Positions 53,437 to 60,212 of a stretch of 64,000 bases of DNA are shown in pieces. A program made the position numbers and the translations under genes. Position 1 is the stretch's first letter. Each line of letters starts with the position of its first letter. Under the pieces are notes generated by a model. That model was not told where the DNA came from. It saw only the letters and a program-made list of their open reading frames with translations, and did no database searches. The stretch is from the NCBI RefSeq assembly GCF_028713855.1, contig NZ_JAQTNN010000001.1, positions 1-64,000 on the forward strand, in the 5' to 3' direction. The stretch is from Sulfuricurvum sp. (GTDB lineage: Bacteria > Campylobacterota > Campylobacteria > Campylobacterales > Sulfurimonadaceae).

Positions 53437-53442
53437 ATATTC

Positions 53443-53467
53443 GTTCGTCCTGAGTTAGTCGAAGGGT
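53443..53467. repeat. Widespread intergenic repeat, half element (TCCTGAG-TAGTCGAAGG)
   Basis: TTCGTCCTGAGTTAGTCGAAG, 6 bases after mutS2, matches from memory the common bacterial intergenic repeat centred on CCTGAGCTTGTCGAAGG. The reverse arm is missing, so this is a partial or decayed copy. Confidence 0.5.
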
Positions 53468-53487
53468 GCTTCGTAATCCATTTCTCC

Positions 53488-53551
53488 GTCATCCCGTGCT
53501 TGATACGGGATCTAATATACACTTTAGATGCTGAATCAAGTTCAGCATGAC
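53488..53551. repeat. Composite palindromic repeat (GTCAT...ATGAC)
   Basis: A 64-base element with outer arms GTCAT / ATGAC enclosing two hairpins: ATCCCGT-N7-ACGGGAT (53491-53511) and ATGCTGAA-TCAAG-TTCAGCAT (53528-53548). Both hairpins match from memory a repeat found between genes in many bacteria. It could fold as a cruciform or RNA double hairpin and end mutS2 transcription. Confidence 0.7.
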
Positions 53552-53574
53552 AAAATATCTTGCTAGGGATCTAT

Positions 53575-53618
53575 CTCCATTCCCTTGCAAACTTTTACAT
53601 TTCACAGTACAATCTTTA
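53575..53618 (+). repeat. Shared upstream repeat, copy 1
   Basis: Contains TTTCACAGTACAATCTTTA (53600-53618) preceded by CCCTTGCAAACTTTTACA. It is about 80 percent alike by eye to 55383-55423 and partly to 54792-54808. It lies about 95 bases before the 95-residue membrane-protein gene. Confidence 0.6.
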
Positions 53619-53711
53619 AAAATATTTCATTTTGTTTAATTTTGATAGTTAAATTTTAAATTTAGGTATATTTTTGAAAAAATAAGACAATTAAATATTA
53701 TGGAGAGTTAA

Positions 53712-53999
53712 ATGATCAAAACCCCTATATATTTATTCTATTTTTCTTTAGTTTTCGGAATATTTCCACTATTAGTTACATTAATATCAGGTGCAATTGC
53801 AAGCCTTTTTGGATGTCAACTGAATGAAGCTACATGTATTTGTGTTATATTAGGACTAAATATTGGACCATTGCTTGGTAGTATGGGTGTAGTGGGTTGG
53901 TTTTCTTTTTATACTATACCTTTAGCTTTAGGTGGAATTTTATTTTCATTTATTTGGGCTATTGCCAATAAATTTTCCAAAAAAAATGATAGAAAATAG
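53712..53999 (+). CDS. Small multi-pass membrane protein, function unknown
   Basis: A 95-residue hydrophobic protein with three likely membrane helices (about residues 5-33, 43-60 and 65-86) and a basic C-terminus (KFSKKNDRK). Two Cys (CQLNEATCIC) lie between the helices. The gene is much more AT-rich than its neighbours. TATGGAGAG precedes the ATG. No family is recognised. Confidence 0.6.
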   Translation: MIKTPIYLFYFSLVFGIFPLLVTLISGAIASLFGCQLNEATCICVILGLNIGPLLGSMGVVGWFSFYTIPLALGGILFSFIWAIANKFSKKNDRK

Positions 54000-54074
54000 G
54001 TAAAAAAGGGAGAAGCTACTTTTTAAAAGATAGATTTACCCTAAAGGGCACTTCGCCCGATCATGTCGGAAATG

Positions 54075-54117
54075 ACGGAATGTATAAACTTTCTAAAATT
54101 CCTGTATAATATTCCGT
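54075..54117 (+). promoter_or_regulatory. Promoter and operator of the toxin-antitoxin pair
   Basis: ACGGAAT (54075-54081) and ATTCCGT (54111-54117) form an inverted repeat around TATAAT (54105-54110), 22 bases before the antitoxin ATG. This fits autorepression by the antitoxin or complex. Binding is inferred. Confidence 0.5.
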
Positions 54118-54138
54118 AAGATTACACGGGAGATTACG

Positions 54139-54444
54139 ATGGTAGCCTATAAATCCAACGAAATGATGAGTTCGACCGATGTTGCGAAAAACTTCGGAGC
54201 AGTCCTCTCCAAACTCGCAAACCACGAAGTCGATAAAATCTGCGTACTGCGTAACAACAAACCCGAAGCGGTCGTCCTCAGCGCACTCGAATATGAACAA
54301 CTCCGTGATTATCGCTATTGGAACACGATGAGCGAAAAAGAGTATCTGCAAAAAGCACATGAGAGTATCGACAGTTCACGGAGCTATTCGATAGAAGAAG
54401 TTGATGCCTATCTCGAACGGATCATCGACACGTATGAACGTTAG
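54139..54444 (+). CDS. Phd/YefM-family antitoxin
   Basis: DNA-binding antitoxin of a type II module. N-terminal MSSTDVAKNFGAVLSKLANHEVDKICVLRNNKPEAVVLSALEYEQL matches the Phd/YefM fold. The C-terminal half is an acidic helix likely wrapping the toxin. It has 101 residues. The toxin gene overlaps its 3' end by 11 bases. Confidence 0.88.
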   Translation: MVAYKSNEMMSSTDVAKNFGAVLSKLANHEVDKICVLRNNKPEAVVLSALEYEQLRDYRYWNTMSEKEYLQKAHESIDSSRSYSIEEVDAYLERIIDTYER

Positions 54445-54724
54445 AATTCTCCCCTCTTTTATCGCCAAACTTCAGTTTGTTTTGGAAAAGATTGCCGAGG
54501 ATAAAAAAAGCGCGGCACATACATTTCGTCGAGAGATTTTGCGTGAGTGCTATAGCCTCAGCGATTTTCCCTACCGTTGCCGCCGCTCGATTCATTATAA
54601 CGATGACAATATACGCGATTTGGTTTTTAAAGGGTATACGATTATTTATAAAATCAAAGATGATGAGATAAAAGTGTTTGCGCTGACAAAATATGAAGAT
54701 TACAAAGATGAAATTGGCTCATAA
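54434..54724 (+). CDS. RelE/ParE-family toxin
   Basis: A 96-residue toxin of the RelE/ParE superfamily starting MNVRILPSFIAKL at 54434, 11 bases inside the antitoxin gene. An earlier in-frame ATG at 54401 is unlikely. Features: helical N-terminus (KIAEDKKSAAHTFRREIL), then RDLVFKGYTIIYKIKDDEIKVFALTKYEDY. Basic residues for RNA or gyrase targeting are present, but RelE and ParE action cannot be told apart by eye. Confidence 0.82.
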   Translation: MNVRILPSFIAKLQFVLEKIAEDKKSAAHTFRREILRECYSLSDFPYRCRRSIHYNDDNIRDLVFKGYTIIYKIKDDEIKVFALTKYEDYKDEIGS

Positions 54725-54740
54725 GCCTATATTTCCCTCG

Positions 54741-54761
54741 TTCCCACTTTCCAAGTGGGAA
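54741..54761. repeat. Palindromic repeat TTCCCACTT/AAGTGGGAA, copy 1
   Basis: A perfect 9-bp stem with a TCC loop, followed by TGCAGTTCTTTA. It resembles from memory the widespread CGTTCCCACGC...GCGTGGGAATGC repeat. It lies 17 bases after the toxin stop. Copies at 55343-55359 and, decayed, at 58944-58975. Confidence 0.7.
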
Positions 54762-54791
54762 TGCAGTTCTTTAGTATTGATAATTTTTTTC

Positions 54792-54808
54792 TTTCATAGT
54801 AAAATCTA
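54792..54808 (+). repeat. Shared upstream repeat, copy 2 (short)
   Basis: TTTCATAGTAAAATCTA, a diverged copy of the motif at 53600 and 55405, 59 bases before the secreted-protein gene. Confidence 0.45.
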
Positions 54809-54866
54809 TATTGAAATATATAATTTTATGTTATAGTAAAAAAATATTATAAAAAAAGGGGTCATC

Positions 54867-55304
54867 ATGAAACGTTTTCTCCTATCAGCGGTAATTGCCG
54901 CTGCAACTCTCACAGCTTCGGCACAAGCTGCCGATGTTGGTGTTTCGATTAGCATCGGGCAGCCCGGCTTTTATGGCCAAATTGACATCGGCGATTTCCC
55001 ACAACCAAGAGTCCTCTACGCTCAACCGATAATCGTTGAACGGGGGATAATGATGAATCGCCCGCCAGTCTATCTGCGCGTTCCGCCTGGGCACGCCAGA
55101 CATTGGAGTAAACATTGTCATGAATACCATGCCTGCGGCGAGCGGGTCTTATTTGTGCGCGATGACTGGTACGAACGCGAGTATGTTCCCCGTTATCAAG
55201 AAAGACACTATGATCGCGGGTATGACAACCGTGATCATGGAGATAGAGGCCGGGGTAATGATCATGGGGACAGAGGTCACGGCAATAAGCATGAAAGAGA
55301 CTAA
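54867..55304 (+). CDS. Small secreted protein with His/Asp/Arg-rich tail
   Basis: A 145-residue periplasmic or exported protein. Signal peptide about 1-21 (ending ASAQAAD). The middle part (VSISIGQPGFYGQIDIGDFPQP; YLRVPPGHARHWSKHC; CGERVLFVRDDWY) resembles, from memory, uncharacterised betaproteobacterial proteins. The tail (about 115-145) alternates His, Asp, Arg and Gly and could bind metal. Base composition is richer in G+C than the host. GGGG lies upstream of the ATG. Confidence 0.75.
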   Translation: MKRFLLSAVIAAATLTASAQAADVGVSISIGQPGFYGQIDIGDFPQPRVLYAQPIIVERGIMMNRPPVYLRVPPGHARHWSKHCHEYHACGERVLFVRDDWYEREYVPRYQERHYDRGYDNRDHGDRGRGNDHGDRGHGNKHERD

Positions 55305-55342
55305 AAAGTAAGGGGTAGAGACTACTTTTAGTATCTCTCGTC

Positions 55343-55359
55343 CCCACTTTCCAAGTGGG
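55343..55359. repeat. Palindromic repeat CCCACTT/AAGTGGG, copy 2
   Basis: CCCACTTTCCAAGTGGG, the same core as at 54741-54761, 38 bases after the secreted-protein stop. It may terminate that transcript. Confidence 0.7.
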
Positions 55360-55382
55360 AATCCATCCCTTTTCCCCATTCA

Positions 55383-55423
55383 CCTCCCCTTGTAAACTTT
55401 CTTATTTCACAGTAGAATCTTTA
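55383..55423 (+). repeat. Shared upstream repeat, copy 3
   Basis: Contains TTTCACAGTAGAATCTTTA (55405-55423), preceded by CCCTTGTAAACTTTCT. It matches copy 1 closely and lies 125 bases before the diguanylate cyclase gene. Confidence 0.6.
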
Positions 55424-55469
55424 CAAGTCTGTCATTGTGTTAAATATTGAGTACCAATTTCTAATATTT

Positions 55470-55486
55470 GGATATTTTGAATATCC
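55470..55486 (+). repeat. Palindrome GGATATT/AATATCC upstream of the diguanylate cyclase gene
   Basis: Perfect 7-bp arms with a TTG loop, followed by TTTT. It could be an operator for the downstream gene or a second terminator for the upstream one. Confidence 0.5.
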
Positions 55487-55547
55487 TTTTATCTATTGAG
55501 TTTTCGGTAAAAGGCATACTATAGGAATGAAGAAATGAGAATCAATA

Positions 55548-57059
55548 ATGAAAAATCCTGATATGGACGACTTGTCCGTCGATCAAGCACCATTGAATGA
55601 CACTGGAATTCCAACTTCTTCGACACGGATTCATTGGTTTAGTCATGTAATAGAATCGCCCATCCTGTTTCCGACAATTATCGTTCTTGTACTAGCCACG
55701 ATCTGGGGGACGACCCTGAGCCTGATCAAAGTCGAACAAACCACGGCCAAGCAAACCGCAGTGGCATCGAGCCATGAACTGTCCGAGACTTATGAATCAC
55801 AGGTCGTGCGCGCACTGCGCGAAATCGACCATACACTGAAAGTCGTCAAATATGCAAATGATTTCTTTAGTACACAGGACGTATTGCCGAAGTTGAAAGC
55901 TAGGGATCTATTGCCGCCGCCGTTGGTGTTCGTCGTCAGTATGGCGGACAGGAAAGGCGATGTCGTGACCAGCACCAGTCCCTCCGAAAACGCCAATGTT
56001 GCCGACCGGGATTTTTTCCGTAGCCAACTCCAGACGGATTCCATCTCGGTCGGTCGTCCGCAACTTGACCCCGATACCGGAAGGTGGAGTCTGACATTCA
56101 GTCGCAGGCTTGACTCGGTCAATGGAAAGTTTGCCGGTATTGTGATGGTCTCGGTCGACGCGGCCTATTTTGTCAGTGGCTATGAATCCTCGAAACTAGG
56201 AGCGCATGGCATGCTCGGCATTTTCGGTGAGGATGGTATATTCCTTGTCAGGCGCAGTGGGGAAACAGTCACTGCCAACGAGAAATCTAACGTCTGGGAT
56301 GGCGTGCGGCGCTACACCAATACACATAGGCTCTATGGTTTCCCACTGAGCGTGATCGTTGGATTATCCGTAGACGAACAATTGGCGTCTGCTCAGCGGA
56401 AGAAACAAGTCTATCTTTGGCGGGCGGCAGCCGGCAGTTTTATAATGATCCTGATTATCGCGGTGATGTGGCGTATGAGCCATCAGCTTGCGTTAAGCCG
56501 TCAGCGTGCCGTCGAGGAAGATATGGCTCATACAGCGCGTGTCGAATACCTTGCCTATCACGATGGTCTCACGACGTTGCCGAATCGCAGCCTATTCAGT
56601 AAGCTGTTGAGCCATTGTATTTATCAGGCGCAACGCTATAACCGGAAATTTGCGGTGCTATATTTCGACTTGGATCATTTTAAAAATGTTAACGATACCC
56701 TCGGACACGAGGCTGGTGACCAACTGTTACAAGAAGTCTCAATAAGAGTAAGGGCTTGTCTGCGTGACAGTGACACTGTCGCCCGTATGGGCGGCGACGA
56801 GTTTGTTGCCTTGCTGCCGGAACTAAGTGAGGAAAAGTACGTAGTGACTGTGGCCCAGAAAATCCTTACCGCCGTCGCTTCGCCATTCATCCTGCAAGGC
56901 CAGGAAGTCCACGTGACAGCAAGTATCGGCATCAGCATCTATCCGCAAGATGGTATGGACGAGCAAACGCTGCAAAAAAATGCCGATATAGCGATGTATC
57001 AGGTGAAGGAAGAAGGCCGGAATAACTTCCAGTTTTATTCCGAGAAACAGAACGCGTAG
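55548..57059 (+). CDS. Membrane-bound diguanylate cyclase with Cache-type sensor
   Basis: Makes c-di-GMP in response to an outside signal. A membrane helix at about residues 36-58, a periplasmic sensor of about 220 residues with Cache-like features (DVVTSTSPSENANVADRDFFRSQL; SVGRPQLDPDTGRWSLTFSRR), a second helix (about 287-308), and GGDEF at 415-419. The product-inhibition I-site RxxD is intact (Arg406-Asp409). It has 503 residues. Base and codon use is clearly richer in G+C than in the flanking genes. It converges on the binding-protein/porin pair. Confidence 0.9.
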   Translation: MKNPDMDDLSVDQAPLNDTGIPTSSTRIHWFSHVIESPILFPTIIVLVLATIWGTTLSLIKVEQTTAKQTAVASSHELSETYESQVVRALREIDHTLKVVKYANDFFSTQDVLPKLKARDLLPPPLVFVVSMADRKGDVVTSTSPSENANVADRDFFRSQLQTDSISVGRPQLDPDTGRWSLTFSRRLDSVNGKFAGIVMVSVDAAYFVSGYESSKLGAHGMLGIFGEDGIFLVRRSGETVTANEKSNVWDGVRRYTNTHRLYGFPLSVIVGLSVDEQLASAQRKKQVYLWRAAAGSFIMILIIAVMWRMSHQLALSRQRAVEEDMAHTARVEYLAYHDGLTTLPNRSLFSKLLSHCIYQAQRYNRKFAVLYFDLDHFKNVNDTLGHEAGDQLLQEVSIRVRACLRDSDTVARMGGDEFVALLPELSEEKYVVTVAQKILTAVASPFILQGQEVHVTASIGISIYPQDGMDEQTLQKNADIAMYQVKEEGRNNFQFYSEKQNA

Positions 57060-57174
57060 TTGCTTGAACGGCTCATATTGGAAGCGGTTCGACGGCAAGC
57101 AGCACTAAAAATGCCATTATCGCTATGGGCAGGGCGTTAAAACAAAGAAACTCTTGCGGGAGAGACGAATCGGA

Positions 57175-57603
57175 TTATTTGAGGATCGCCTTGACACTGT
57201 CATCCATCAACTTTTGATCGATGTAGCCGATGGCATCGGGATGTTCGACAATGAACTTTTTTACCTCTATATCATTTGATACTTCCTGCGGCGGCTGGCC
57301 CCGGCCGGTGAAAATAATCTTTGACCAGAATGCCTTTATCTGCGAGGGGGACTTGCCGGCGAATTTGAAGTAAAACTCCTCGCGGGCGGCAGAACCTTCG
57401 TTCTGATCGACCGGCACGGCTTGATGGCCATTAGGAAAGCGGTTTGCTTTGCCCAAAAATATATCCACGACTTGGTTTTTGCTCAGCGTGCTCATGGGAC
57501 TTTTGGCTGAAACCACAGCCACTATATCGGCCATAGCCTCAGCTGAGACTAAACTCAGGGAGAATGCGATGATGATAGATCCTATGCGATTCATATTAAT
57601 CAT
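57175..57603 (-). CDS. Small periplasmic substrate-binding-like protein (PBP-like)
   Basis: A 142-residue exported protein with a signal peptide (about 1-25, SLVSAEAMAD). The mature part (DIVAVVSAKSPMSTLSKNQVVDIFLGKANRFPNGHQAVPVDQNEGSAAREEFYFKFAGKS) is one lobe of a phosphate-ABC-type binding protein fold, far shorter than PstS. No ABC transporter is nearby. ATG 57603 has GAGG six bases upstream; an ATG at 57615 overlaps the porin stop. Being next to a sensor cyclase suggests a ligand-presenting role. Confidence 0.8.
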   Translation of the reverse strand: MINMNRIGSIIIAFSLSLVSAEAMADIVAVVSAKSPMSTLSKNQVVDIFLGKANRFPNGHQAVPVDQNEGSAAREEFYFKFAGKSPSQIKAFWSKIIFTGRGQPPQEVSNDIEVKKFIVEHPDAIGYIDQKLMDDSVKAILK

Positions 57604-57614
57604 AATCGGCCTCA

Positions 57615-58841
57615 TCAGAATACGAAATCAATTGAGGTGCTGAACACGTTGAAACTGCCGCCCGTCTGAAAACCCGGCTGGAGGTTGATCAATACACCAT
57701 TTGAGCCGGTGTCGATACGGGTGTGATCGTATTGCAGTTTGAGGGCGGCATTAGTCATGAAATCCCATCGCCCACCGATGGAAATAGTCTGCTGAGACGG
57801 AATGGATTCGAGGACAGCGCTCAGACCTGCGTTAAGGGCTGCAGCAGCAGGGGCAGCTAAACCAGGGTCGGAACTATTGATATGGGTCTTCACATGGGCG
57901 AAAGTGAGATAGGGCGTGAACTTGTCAATCCGGTAACCGCCGCTGGCATACCAGGCATTTCTTTGGATAGTTACAACCTTACTGTTGATAACACACCATT
58001 CACCCATCACGAACCAGTCGCCCGGATCGTATATTCCGCCGAGACTGATGACGGAAAGGTGCACTTTGCTGAGATCATATTTATCTGCGAGAGCGATTCC
58101 TTCCGCCCCGAATTGTCTGAACCCATCAAATAGCGGTTTGTAGGCATCGACGATTGCGTTGGATTGGAGATACGAAATGTGTGCGGTTGCGGCATCGTAT
58201 TCGCCTGTATAGGTTATGCCCAACACGTCCTTTGCTTTGGCGGTACCGCCGCCGGAGGGAAGGTTGACTTCGTTTTGTCCGTAAATTCCCTGCAGGGTAT
58301 TCGTAAATTCACCGATGCGCATTCGGTAACTGGTATCTATGCCATCACTGTTGCTGACAGGTAAAAGGCCATAGATTTCAACCGGTGTCCGCGCCCAAGG
58401 ATTGGCATAGCCCACCTTGCGAAAGTCGGAAACTAGAAAAACCGGTAATACGATCCTGCCAATACGCACATTGAAATCCGGCGTAACCTGATACTTGATA
58501 TTTGCCCACTCTACATGGGGCCGGTAGGTGTTGTCGTAATTCTGCTCCGCGATGACCTGCAAGACGGACGAGAGCTTTGGGCTGAGATCGACGGTGACCT
58601 GTCCCCCAATCAGGCTGTCAACATCTGCGCTCCAGTCATGGCTGTAACCGGCGCCGTTTGGCTTGAATGCGGAAGAGGTAAAATCCGCCTGATTCTCGCT
58701 GGAATGAACCACACCCAAAGTGCCGAAACCGCTGAACGAAAACATCGGCGTTTCTAGTTCGTCGGCGCTCGCACCGGCCACGTGCAACGCCGTCGCAAGC
58801 AGCGCGATGTATGTCAGTTTATTCGATATGCTTTTAATCAT
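57615..58841 (-). CDS. Outer-membrane porin-like beta-barrel protein
   Basis: A 408-residue predicted outer-membrane barrel. Signal peptide about 1-27 (ending GASAD), then alternating beta strands typical of barrels (FSFSGFGTLGVVHSSENQ, NVRIGRIVLPVFLVSDF, IGGRWDFMTNAALKLQYDHTRI) and a terminal Phe (SIDFVF), the usual barrel-assembly signal. ATG 58841 has GGGAGC upstream. It resembles betaproteobacterial porins by eye. The next gene downstream is the binding-like protein. Confidence 0.85.
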   Translation of the reverse strand: MIKSISNKLTYIALLATALHVAGASADELETPMFSFSGFGTLGVVHSSENQADFTSSAFKPNGAGYSHDWSADVDSLIGGQVTVDLSPKLSSVLQVIAEQNYDNTYRPHVEWANIKYQVTPDFNVRIGRIVLPVFLVSDFRKVGYANPWARTPVEIYGLLPVSNSDGIDTSYRMRIGEFTNTLQGIYGQNEVNLPSGGGTAKAKDVLGITYTGEYDAATAHISYLQSNAIVDAYKPLFDGFRQFGAEGIALADKYDLSKVHLSVISLGGIYDPGDWFVMGEWCVINSKVVTIQRNAWYASGGYRIDKFTPYLTFAHVKTHINSSDPGLAAPAAAALNAGLSAVLESIPSQQTISIGGRWDFMTNAALKLQYDHTRIDTGSNGVLINLQPGFQTGGSFNVFSTSIDFVF

Positions 58842-59261
58842 ATTTGCTCCCGTGAAGGTATCAGCCACCTATGGTAACTGAATCAAACTGAGTCGTTACC
58901 ACTGTTCAAACTCGACCGGCAAGAGGTTACCATTTCATTATAGCCACGCTTTCTGAGTGGTGCAGTTCTTTATACGCTTAGTGAATTATTGTACCTAAAT
59001 AATCTTCAATTCTATGCAATAGACCAATTTTATGAACGAAAAAGATTACACCCCCATGAATAACTCTCCACTTCTAAAACAGTATAAATAAGGTTTGACA
59101 GAGTCAGTCTTTATAATGTTAAAAAACTTTTATTCCAAAAACTTTTAAAAGGTTGATGTGCTATTGGATTCGAGGCAAAAATCCTTAGTCTTTGATTTAG
59201 GTTTGAAAAAGATAAAATCATAGTAGCAAAAATGGATACCTCTAAAAAGTAGGAGAATAGT
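58842..59261. other. Intergenic region at the right edge of the accessory segment
   Basis: About 420 bases without a credible gene. It holds the porin promoter region (minus strand), a decayed copy of the palindromic repeat (CCACGCTTTCTGAGTGG plus GCAGTTCTTTA, 58944-58975) and the leader of the Sel1 gene. TTGACA (59095) and TATAAT (59112) occur but are only 11 bases apart, so they do not form a standard promoter. Composition falls back to AT-rich after about 58930. Confidence 0.6.
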
Positions 59262-60212
59262 GTGTTTAAAACCCTTTTTCGACCTTTATTCAATGCCATA
59301 AACTTTAATAAAATCGAAAAACTTGCCGAATCGGGAGACTCAGATGCCCAAAATAAACTGGGGGTTATGTATCATTTAGGCTCTTATGTCCCTCAAGATT
59401 ATAAAAAAGCAGTTCTGTGGTATACCAAAGCAGCTAATCAAGCGCATGTTCAAGCACAGGCCAATTTGGGTGAAATGTATGAGTATGGCAATGGGGTTAT
59501 ACGTGATGATACAAAGGCGGTATTTTGGTACACCAAAGCTGCCGGAGCTGGAGATGTAAATGCCCAAAATGCACTGGGTTGGATGTATGAAAAAGGCAAA
59601 GGGGTAGAACAAGATTATGCCGAGGCCGTAGAGTGGTACAGTAAAGCTGCCTCTCAGGGAACGGCTGATGCTCAGTACAATCTCGGTGTAATGTATGATG
59701 CCGGTAGAGGGGTATCACAAGATTACCGTAAAGCATTGAATCTGTTCCAAAAATCTGCCGAACAAGGATACGCCCCCGGTCAAACGAGCTTAGGGATGAT
59801 GTATGCTGAAGGGCATGGTTTAGAGAAAAATATACCCATAGCTATTGAATGGTATCATAAAGCAGCAGAACAAGGATATGTGCTCGCTCAAAGGTTGTTG
59901 GGTGATTACTATGAGGCAAAGAAAAATATTGCAAGAGCAGTTCATTGGTATCTATTGGCAGCAAAACAAGGTGAATCTACCGCACAAACGAATCTTGGAT
60001 TGATGTATGGTGTCGGGCAGGACATTATGAAAAATGCGGTTATATCCTATGCGCTGTTGGAAATGGCTTCAGCAGGCGGAAACGAAACGGCGATGGATAT
60101 CCGATATGTGATTGCCAAAGAACTCAATTCCGCACAAATTGATGAAGCCCATTTACTGGCACAAGAACCTGAAGAATTGTGGAAACGGATTGAGAATACA
60201 GTCCAAAAATGA
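59262..60212 (+). CDS. Sel1-like (TPR) repeat protein
   Basis: About seven Sel1 repeats of 36 residues (AQNKLGVMYHLGSYVPQDYKKAVLWYTKAANQ; AQANLGEMYEYGNGV; AQYNLGVMYDAGRGVSQDY). It has 316 residues. There is no signal peptide or membrane helix, so it is probably cytoplasmic, unlike many exported Sel1 proteins. GTG start with AGGAG seven bases upstream. Sel1 proteins act as scaffolds; the partner is unknown. Confidence 0.88.
   Translation: MFKTLFRPLFNAINFNKIEKLAESGDSDAQNKLGVMYHLGSYVPQDYKKAVLWYTKAANQAHVQAQANLGEMYEYGNGVIRDDTKAVFWYTKAAGAGDVNAQNALGWMYEKGKGVEQDYAEAVEWYSKAASQGTADAQYNLGVMYDAGRGVSQDYRKALNLFQKSAEQGYAPGQTSLGMMYAEGHGLEKNIPIAIEWYHKAAEQGYVLAQRLLGDYYEAKKNIARAVHWYLLAAKQGESTAQTNLGLMYGVGQDIMKNAVISYALLEMASAGGNETAMDIRYVIAKELNSAQIDEAHLLAQEPEELWKRIENTVQK

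Follow-up and report, generated by a model that had tools for sequence, protein, structure and literature searches.

Periplasmic binding proteins and transmembrane receptors

The periplasmic part of the receptor LuxQ adopts a tandem-PAS/Cache fold. In LuxP–LuxQ, as in NspS–MbaA and TorT–TorS, a relative of periplasmic binding proteins (PBPs) is encoded beside a transmembrane receptor, and the PBPs of such systems are complete two-lobe proteins that are not known to have a porin partner. PBP-controlled receptors are well documented in general (PMC9602780), and NspS–MbaA is an example (PMC8079147). A different architecture is realized in YfiBNR (TpbB, Pseudomonas aeruginosa), which unites an inner-membrane diguanylate cyclase (DGC), a small periplasmic regulator and an outer-membrane protein. 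YfiR, which regulates the DGC YfiN, is structurally similar to one domain, the N-terminal one, of a type I PBP with two domains (PMC4655355), and a report on E. coli describes YfiN as devoid of I-sites (PMC10127611). The locus investigated here has the same three kinds of component as YfiBNR and, as in the PBP-controlled receptors, a binding-protein relative next to a transmembrane receptor.

Structure of the locus

The window analysed in this study comprises 64,000 nucleotides of Sulfuricurvum sp. (contig NZ_JAQTNN010000001.1, positions 1 to 64,000). A first, sequence-only reading had recognized three genes for a DGC, a small binding protein and a porin, and all three open reading frames (ORFs) are intact:

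55548–57059, plus strand: inner-membrane dCache-GGDEF diguanylate cyclase, 503 aa, the receptor/output protein (Pfam, motifs, homologues)
55623–56492, plus strand: periplasmic dCache sensor region of the DGC, anchored in the membrane and shared with other loci of the module
56553–57026, plus strand: GGDEF catalytic domain (Pfam, residues 336–493), with the I-site RDSD at 56763–56774
57060–57174, no strand: gap of 115 bases separating the half-PBP gene from the convergent DGC gene, without a shared promoter (sequence)
57175–57603, minus strand: half-PBP, predicted secreted lobe 2 of a PstS-type PBP, 142 aa including the signal peptide (AlphaFold, structural alignment)
57615–58841, minus strand: predicted outer-membrane porin of the general-porin type, 408 aa, putatively coupled to the half-PBP gene (AlphaFold, Foldseek)

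The predicted DGC matches the Pfam families GGDEF (E 9e-51) and dCache_1 (E 4e-9, under the cut-off of that family). Its motif series RDSD-TVARM-GGDEF, which was read directly, shows that, as initially proposed, both the active site and the I-site are intact; the latter is of the RxxD type and precedes the former by five residues. The protein thus has the active-site motif of the diguanylate cyclase class. The dCache region is bordered by two hydrophobic segments that, judged by eye, are probably membrane-spanning. The top NCBIfam match is DgcN/YfiN with 179 bits versus a cut-off of 325, and it covers the GGDEF part only.

The gene of the small protein preferably starts at position 57603 with an ATG that is preceded by the ribosome-binding sequence GAGG, which supports the proposed length of 142 residues; the longest ORF starts at 57615 and encodes 146 aa. 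The AlphaFold model (pLDDT 90.8) matches PstS proteins in Foldseek and VIA-align with their second lobe only. Residues 27–146 (numbering of the 146-aa ORF) superpose on residues 77–187 of the PstS structure 4q8r with a Z-score of 14.8 and an rmsd of 1.8 over 107 residues, and the counterpart of lobe 1 from the 241-residue PstS chain is absent. No NCBIfam match and no Pfam match above cut-off were obtained; the similarity to PF12849 (16.3 bits, cut-off 27) is restricted to profile positions 92–186 of 267. PF12849 is nevertheless the sole recurrent Pfam family across the window protein and 58 relatives, and the same scans revealed no PF13689 (DUF4154, the YfiR family). The match to PstS lobe 2 alone together with the partial PF12849 match indicates that the half-PBP corresponds to just one lobe of a binding protein of type II, and we regard this predicted fold as solid. 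The earlier designation as a “mini PBP” accordingly needs one correction, as the protein is a single lobe and not a small complete binding protein.

An alignment of the half-PBP family with 81 rows exhibits four invariant residues (F81, W97, G104 and Y131 in the numbering of the 146-aa ORF), and the motif (Y/F)WS(K/R)xxFTGxGxPP is nearly invariant among the proteobacterial representatives. The lobe-2 motif S-R-E-D-G-S-G-T-R of PstS, whose Arg and Thr contact phosphate, has changed to D-Q-x-E-G-S-x-x-R. Gln occupies the Arg position in 49 of 59 relatives and the Thr position is variable, which makes PstS-like phosphate binding doubtful. As the protein consists of lobe 2 only, the ligand binding envisaged at the outset is unlikely to proceed by the usual two-lobe clamp, and the anion motif is eroded. 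Public records list the small proteins either as “hypothetical” or as “phosphate ABC transporter substrate-binding protein”, and such annotation conceals a probable signalling family.

The preferred start of the porin gene is an ATG at 58841 with GGGAG upstream (408 aa), while the longest ORF begins at 58868. The model (pLDDT 86.1) is a barrel that resembles OmpT, Omp32, BpsOmp38 and OmpF (Foldseek E-values down to 5e-15); no Pfam match, OmpA included, was found. Approximately 16 predicted strands, an N-terminal signal peptide and a C-terminal Phe (...SIDFVF) agree with the features of general bacterial porins. The barrels in the lineage of the host are shorter (about 330 aa), and that of one order-level relative shows a weak match to Porin_O_P. 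The porin stop codon overlaps the start of the longer half-PBP ORF in the sequence TGATG, so that both genes are likely translationally coupled, in line with the predicted two-gene unit. The DGC gene lies convergently on the opposite strand and hence does not form one operon with the pair; the same convergent layout is found at the loci L014, L015, L016 and L019. An ABC transporter gene, whose absence had been pointed out, was not recognized among the subset of ORFs examined at 49–63 kb.

Conservation of the porin/half-PBP pair

A contig scan with the single half-PBP sequence gave no match, whereas an alignment-based scan did. The profile scan of species genomes yielded 450 related stretches, the best 80 of which were fetched and ranked by their similarity to the window half-PBP. 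Relatives are present in 31 of 60 relatives of the host and also on plasmid records. Co-occurrence in other genomes had been suggested as a test of the three-gene association. Our comparison of 123 loci, based on mechanical gene calls, showed a barrel gene immediately upstream of the half-PBP gene in 115, and the two genes usually overlap or are located within about 15 bp of each other. Of the 123 loci, 81 have a receptor gene (GGDEF, GGDEF-EAL, HD-GYP, histidine kinase or chemoreceptor) next to the pair; among the other genes of at least 150 aa at these loci, receptors account for 36 of 704 (about 5%).

Because the first loci had been ranked by similarity, a second, even sample was drawn from the class of the genome that contains L014, a Burkholderiales metagenome-assembled genome (MAG). 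Half-PBPs occur in 27 of its 94 genomes, one of which is the centre genome that was picked for having a half-PBP, with up to eight copies per genome. The 40 loci retrieved, 39 from this sample and one from the family of the host, contain an adjacent barrel gene in 34 cases and a flanking receptor gene in 20, as counted by eye. An even draw from the phylum of the host showed that half-PBPs are rarer there (5 of 101 genomes, including the host itself and one weak match). The porin/half-PBP pair is thus found repeatedly in two bacterial phyla, with a wide variety of receptors as neighbours. The genes of the window belong together and their linkage is far above chance; the constant core is the porin/half-PBP pair, and the receptor is the exchanged part.

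Several large neighbours of pairs without a recognized receptor were considered as candidates and rejected, as they encode HSP90, malate synthase, a TonB receptor, a cytochrome, ferrochelatase and a Mur ligase. Further arrangements were observed among the relatives. At least three half-PBP genes alternate with barrel genes at L195 (G096:C41:3000-19000), in a genome with eight copies. At L035, L056, L061 and L064, two successive half-PBP genes, whose products could pair as two lobes of one binding unit, follow a single porin gene. On an Alteromonas plasmid (L007, 4974–9697), a half-PBP gene and a downstream “hypothetical” gene are located beside an apparently unrelated type IV CRISPR (csf) operon.

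Exchange of outputs

Six output types were found beside the pair, namely GGDEF, GGDEF-EAL, HD-GYP, histidine kinase, chemoreceptor (MCP) and class III nucleotidyl cyclase. The last is a membrane protein encoded directly upstream of the pair in seven further loci of Oceanospirillaceae-type genomes (L037, L049, L026, L029, L033, L066 and L038), which possibly represent a cyclic-nucleotide version of the module. The half-PBP tree documents at least 30 changes of output type, a number that counts “none” as a state; the underlying alignment is short and many forks of the tree are unresolved. Genomes of the host genus harbor three-gene runs of barrel, half-PBP and either HD-GYP protein or kinase. 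The host itself possesses three triads, that of the window (GGDEF), one at C6:146 kb (HD-GYP, L004) and one at C1:380 kb (kinase, L124), and may therefore both synthesize and degrade c-di-GMP from sister sensors.

Receptors of the betaproteobacterial type retain one dCache family but differ at the C-terminal end, which consists of GGDEF, GGDEF-EAL or PAS-GAF-GGDEF-EAL, and they measure 503, ~780 and ~1090 aa. The dCache region of the window is common to the GGDEF-EAL and PAS-GAF-GGDEF-EAL proteins of other module loci, and its homologues adjoin porin/half-PBP pairs in beta- and gammaproteobacteria. In 16 genomes of this type, the best dCache match (E<1e-107) adjoins a half-PBP gene; paralogues at a greater distance (E about 1e-61 or weaker) and one close copy (G065:C23) are not located beside one. 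Distance matrices co-vary for PBP and sensor (r 0.92) and for PBP and porin (r 0.84), correlations that still include species relatedness. No single periplasmic sensor domain is common to the receptors of the various output types, and a single docking surface is consequently not evident. The initial proposal of a signalling system with c-di-GMP output is thus sustained with respect to the recurrent three-gene unit; c-di-GMP is not its defining element, as the receptor is exchanged.

Origin of the window copy

The nearest relatives of half-PBP, porin and sensor alike are encoded at L014 (62–64% identity, with values of 62, 63 and 62% for the three in this order in one comparison), whose layout is convergent as in the window, and the grouping of the half-PBP with that of L014 is supported by 95% SH-aLRT. 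The sensor has no match among 59 relatives of the host genome. The insertion was delimited as follows:

54735–59340 (approximate), no strand: lineage-specific insertion that close relatives lack, located between the Phd/ParE pair and the Sel1/ligA genes

The flanks of this segment are ~229 (G004) and ~299 bases (G009) apart, versus about 4.6 kb in the window. The common nearest locus, the lack of the sensor in relatives of the host and the empty site make a recent import of the triad as a unit the most likely explanation, with a proteobacterium as the probable donor. The GC content of the cassette genes (0.48–0.52) is not distinct from that of the neighbours mutS2 and ligA (0.49–0.51) and was dropped as evidence, which leaves phylogeny and the empty site as the basis of the conclusion. 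Mis-binning was rejected, since the cassette resides within a contig of 402,909 bases between genes shared with genomes of the same genus.

The surrounding region (53437–59260) is a variable spot between the mutS2-like and Sel1/ligA genes, where genomes of the same genus carry different inserts. A pair of a Phd/YefM-like antitoxin and a ParE-like toxin (54139–54724) is located just outside the insertion and at the same place in G004 and G009. Positions 54867–55304 encode a secreted-looking protein of 145 aa with a low-complexity tail rich in His, Arg and Asp and without Pfam match; homologous DNA with 85% identity is present in G011 (L247).

Proposed mechanism and alternatives

We consider it rather likely that the three genes specify a trans-envelope sensory module, in which porin and half-PBP act as a messenger system on the partner receptor. 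The porin would be the outer-membrane element that serves as entry point of a ligand and/or as sensor of a state, and the half-PBP a soluble periplasmic messenger that is made together with it. Docking of the half-PBP on the periplasmic dCache domain would alter the output of the receptor by activation or inhibition, and in the window the complex would tune c-di-GMP synthesis by the DGC. Due to the missing lobe 1, the half-PBP is most likely no ligand clamp on its own. It could complete a pocket together with a partner (the dCache domain, the porin or a second copy), or it could be a protein switch that is sequestered and released at the outer membrane, as YfiB handles YfiR. How one lobe of a flytrap signals is the structural question raised by this family. 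From the original interpretation the conserved three-gene unit has been retained, but the single lobe makes ligand binding by a two-lobe clamp unlikely, and the swapped receptors show that c-di-GMP is not the defining part. The chances are about even that the pair is a portable front end on six transmembrane outputs that spreads between phyla, and thus an undescribed, widespread class of trans-envelope receptors. If the model holds, it provides a testable route from conditions at the outer membrane to c-di-GMP, chemotaxis, kinase and probably cyclic-nucleotide outputs.

According to the main rival explanation, the half-PBP is a dedicated periplasmic subunit of the porin (gate, plug or assembly partner), while the receptors merely share the regulon and sense the same solute via their own Cache domains. 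Direct binding of small ligands is usual for dCache domains, the pairing with the porin (34/40, 115/123) is more constant than the receptor link (20/40, 81/123), and some loci consist of tandem porin/half-PBP units without adjacent receptor. We nonetheless judge this explanation to be unlikely, because receptors of six output types are enriched several-fold over the local background, tight barrel/half-PBP/HD-GYP runs exist in genomes of the same genus and the three genes of the window cassette moved together. In the even sample a directly adjacent receptor gene is missing from about half of the pairs, and the pair may thus have a receptor-free job.

Considerably less probable is a ligand relay like NspS/MbaA, in which an oxyanion or organic ligand enters through the porin and is bound by the small PBP alone, which in its loaded state switches on the dCache receptor. 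This scenario would be compatible with the PstS-derived fold, with the weak Porin_O_P similarity of a related barrel, with the wide distribution of receptors activated by substrate-binding proteins across output types (PMC9602780) and with the PBP-controlled c-di-GMP receptor of NspS–MbaA (PMC8079147), but it conflicts with the presence of one lobe only and the loss of the PstS anion motif. A chance neighbourhood, conceivable because the site between mutS2 and ligA is variable, is extremely improbable and refuted by the co-occurrence counts, given that the pairing is conserved and receptors are enriched across the more than 160 loci examined, and given the identical layout of L014, L015, L016 and L019.

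Comparison with known systems

No named porin/half-PBP/receptor system was found in the literature searched, in which subscription papers and preprints were thinly covered, and this agrees with the initial impression. Compared with PstS (PF12849), on whose lobe 2 it superposes, the half-PBP is devoid of lobe 1 and of the Arg and Thr of the anion motif, and it has no PstCAB transporter as a neighbour; its partial, below-cut-off PF12849 match and the loss of S-R-x-D-G-S-G-T-R place it outside the PstS proteins. The adjacent transmembrane receptor is shared with the PBP-controlled receptors, whereas a lobe 2 takes the place of the complete two-lobe PBP.

The closest working analogue is YfiBNR, where an outer-membrane protein controls the periplasmic regulator of an inner-membrane DGC. 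Both systems contain a DGC, but neither a YfiR-family regulator nor a YfiB-type lipoprotein is encoded at our locus. YfiR is a DUF4154 protein corresponding to half of a type I PBP, and its counterpart in the window is lobe 2 of a PstS-type PBP; YfiB is an OmpA-like lipoprotein and the outer-membrane partner in the window a barrel of the general-porin type. YfiN combines HAMP with a periplasmic domain of its own, in contrast to the dCache domain of the window DGC, which moreover has an I-site, unlike YfiN as reported for E. coli. The protein families differ, and the resemblance is thus one of likeness and not of kinship. If the proposed mechanism is true, half-PBPs would be a recurrent solution that arose independently, in YfiR from type I binding proteins and in the present family from those of type II.
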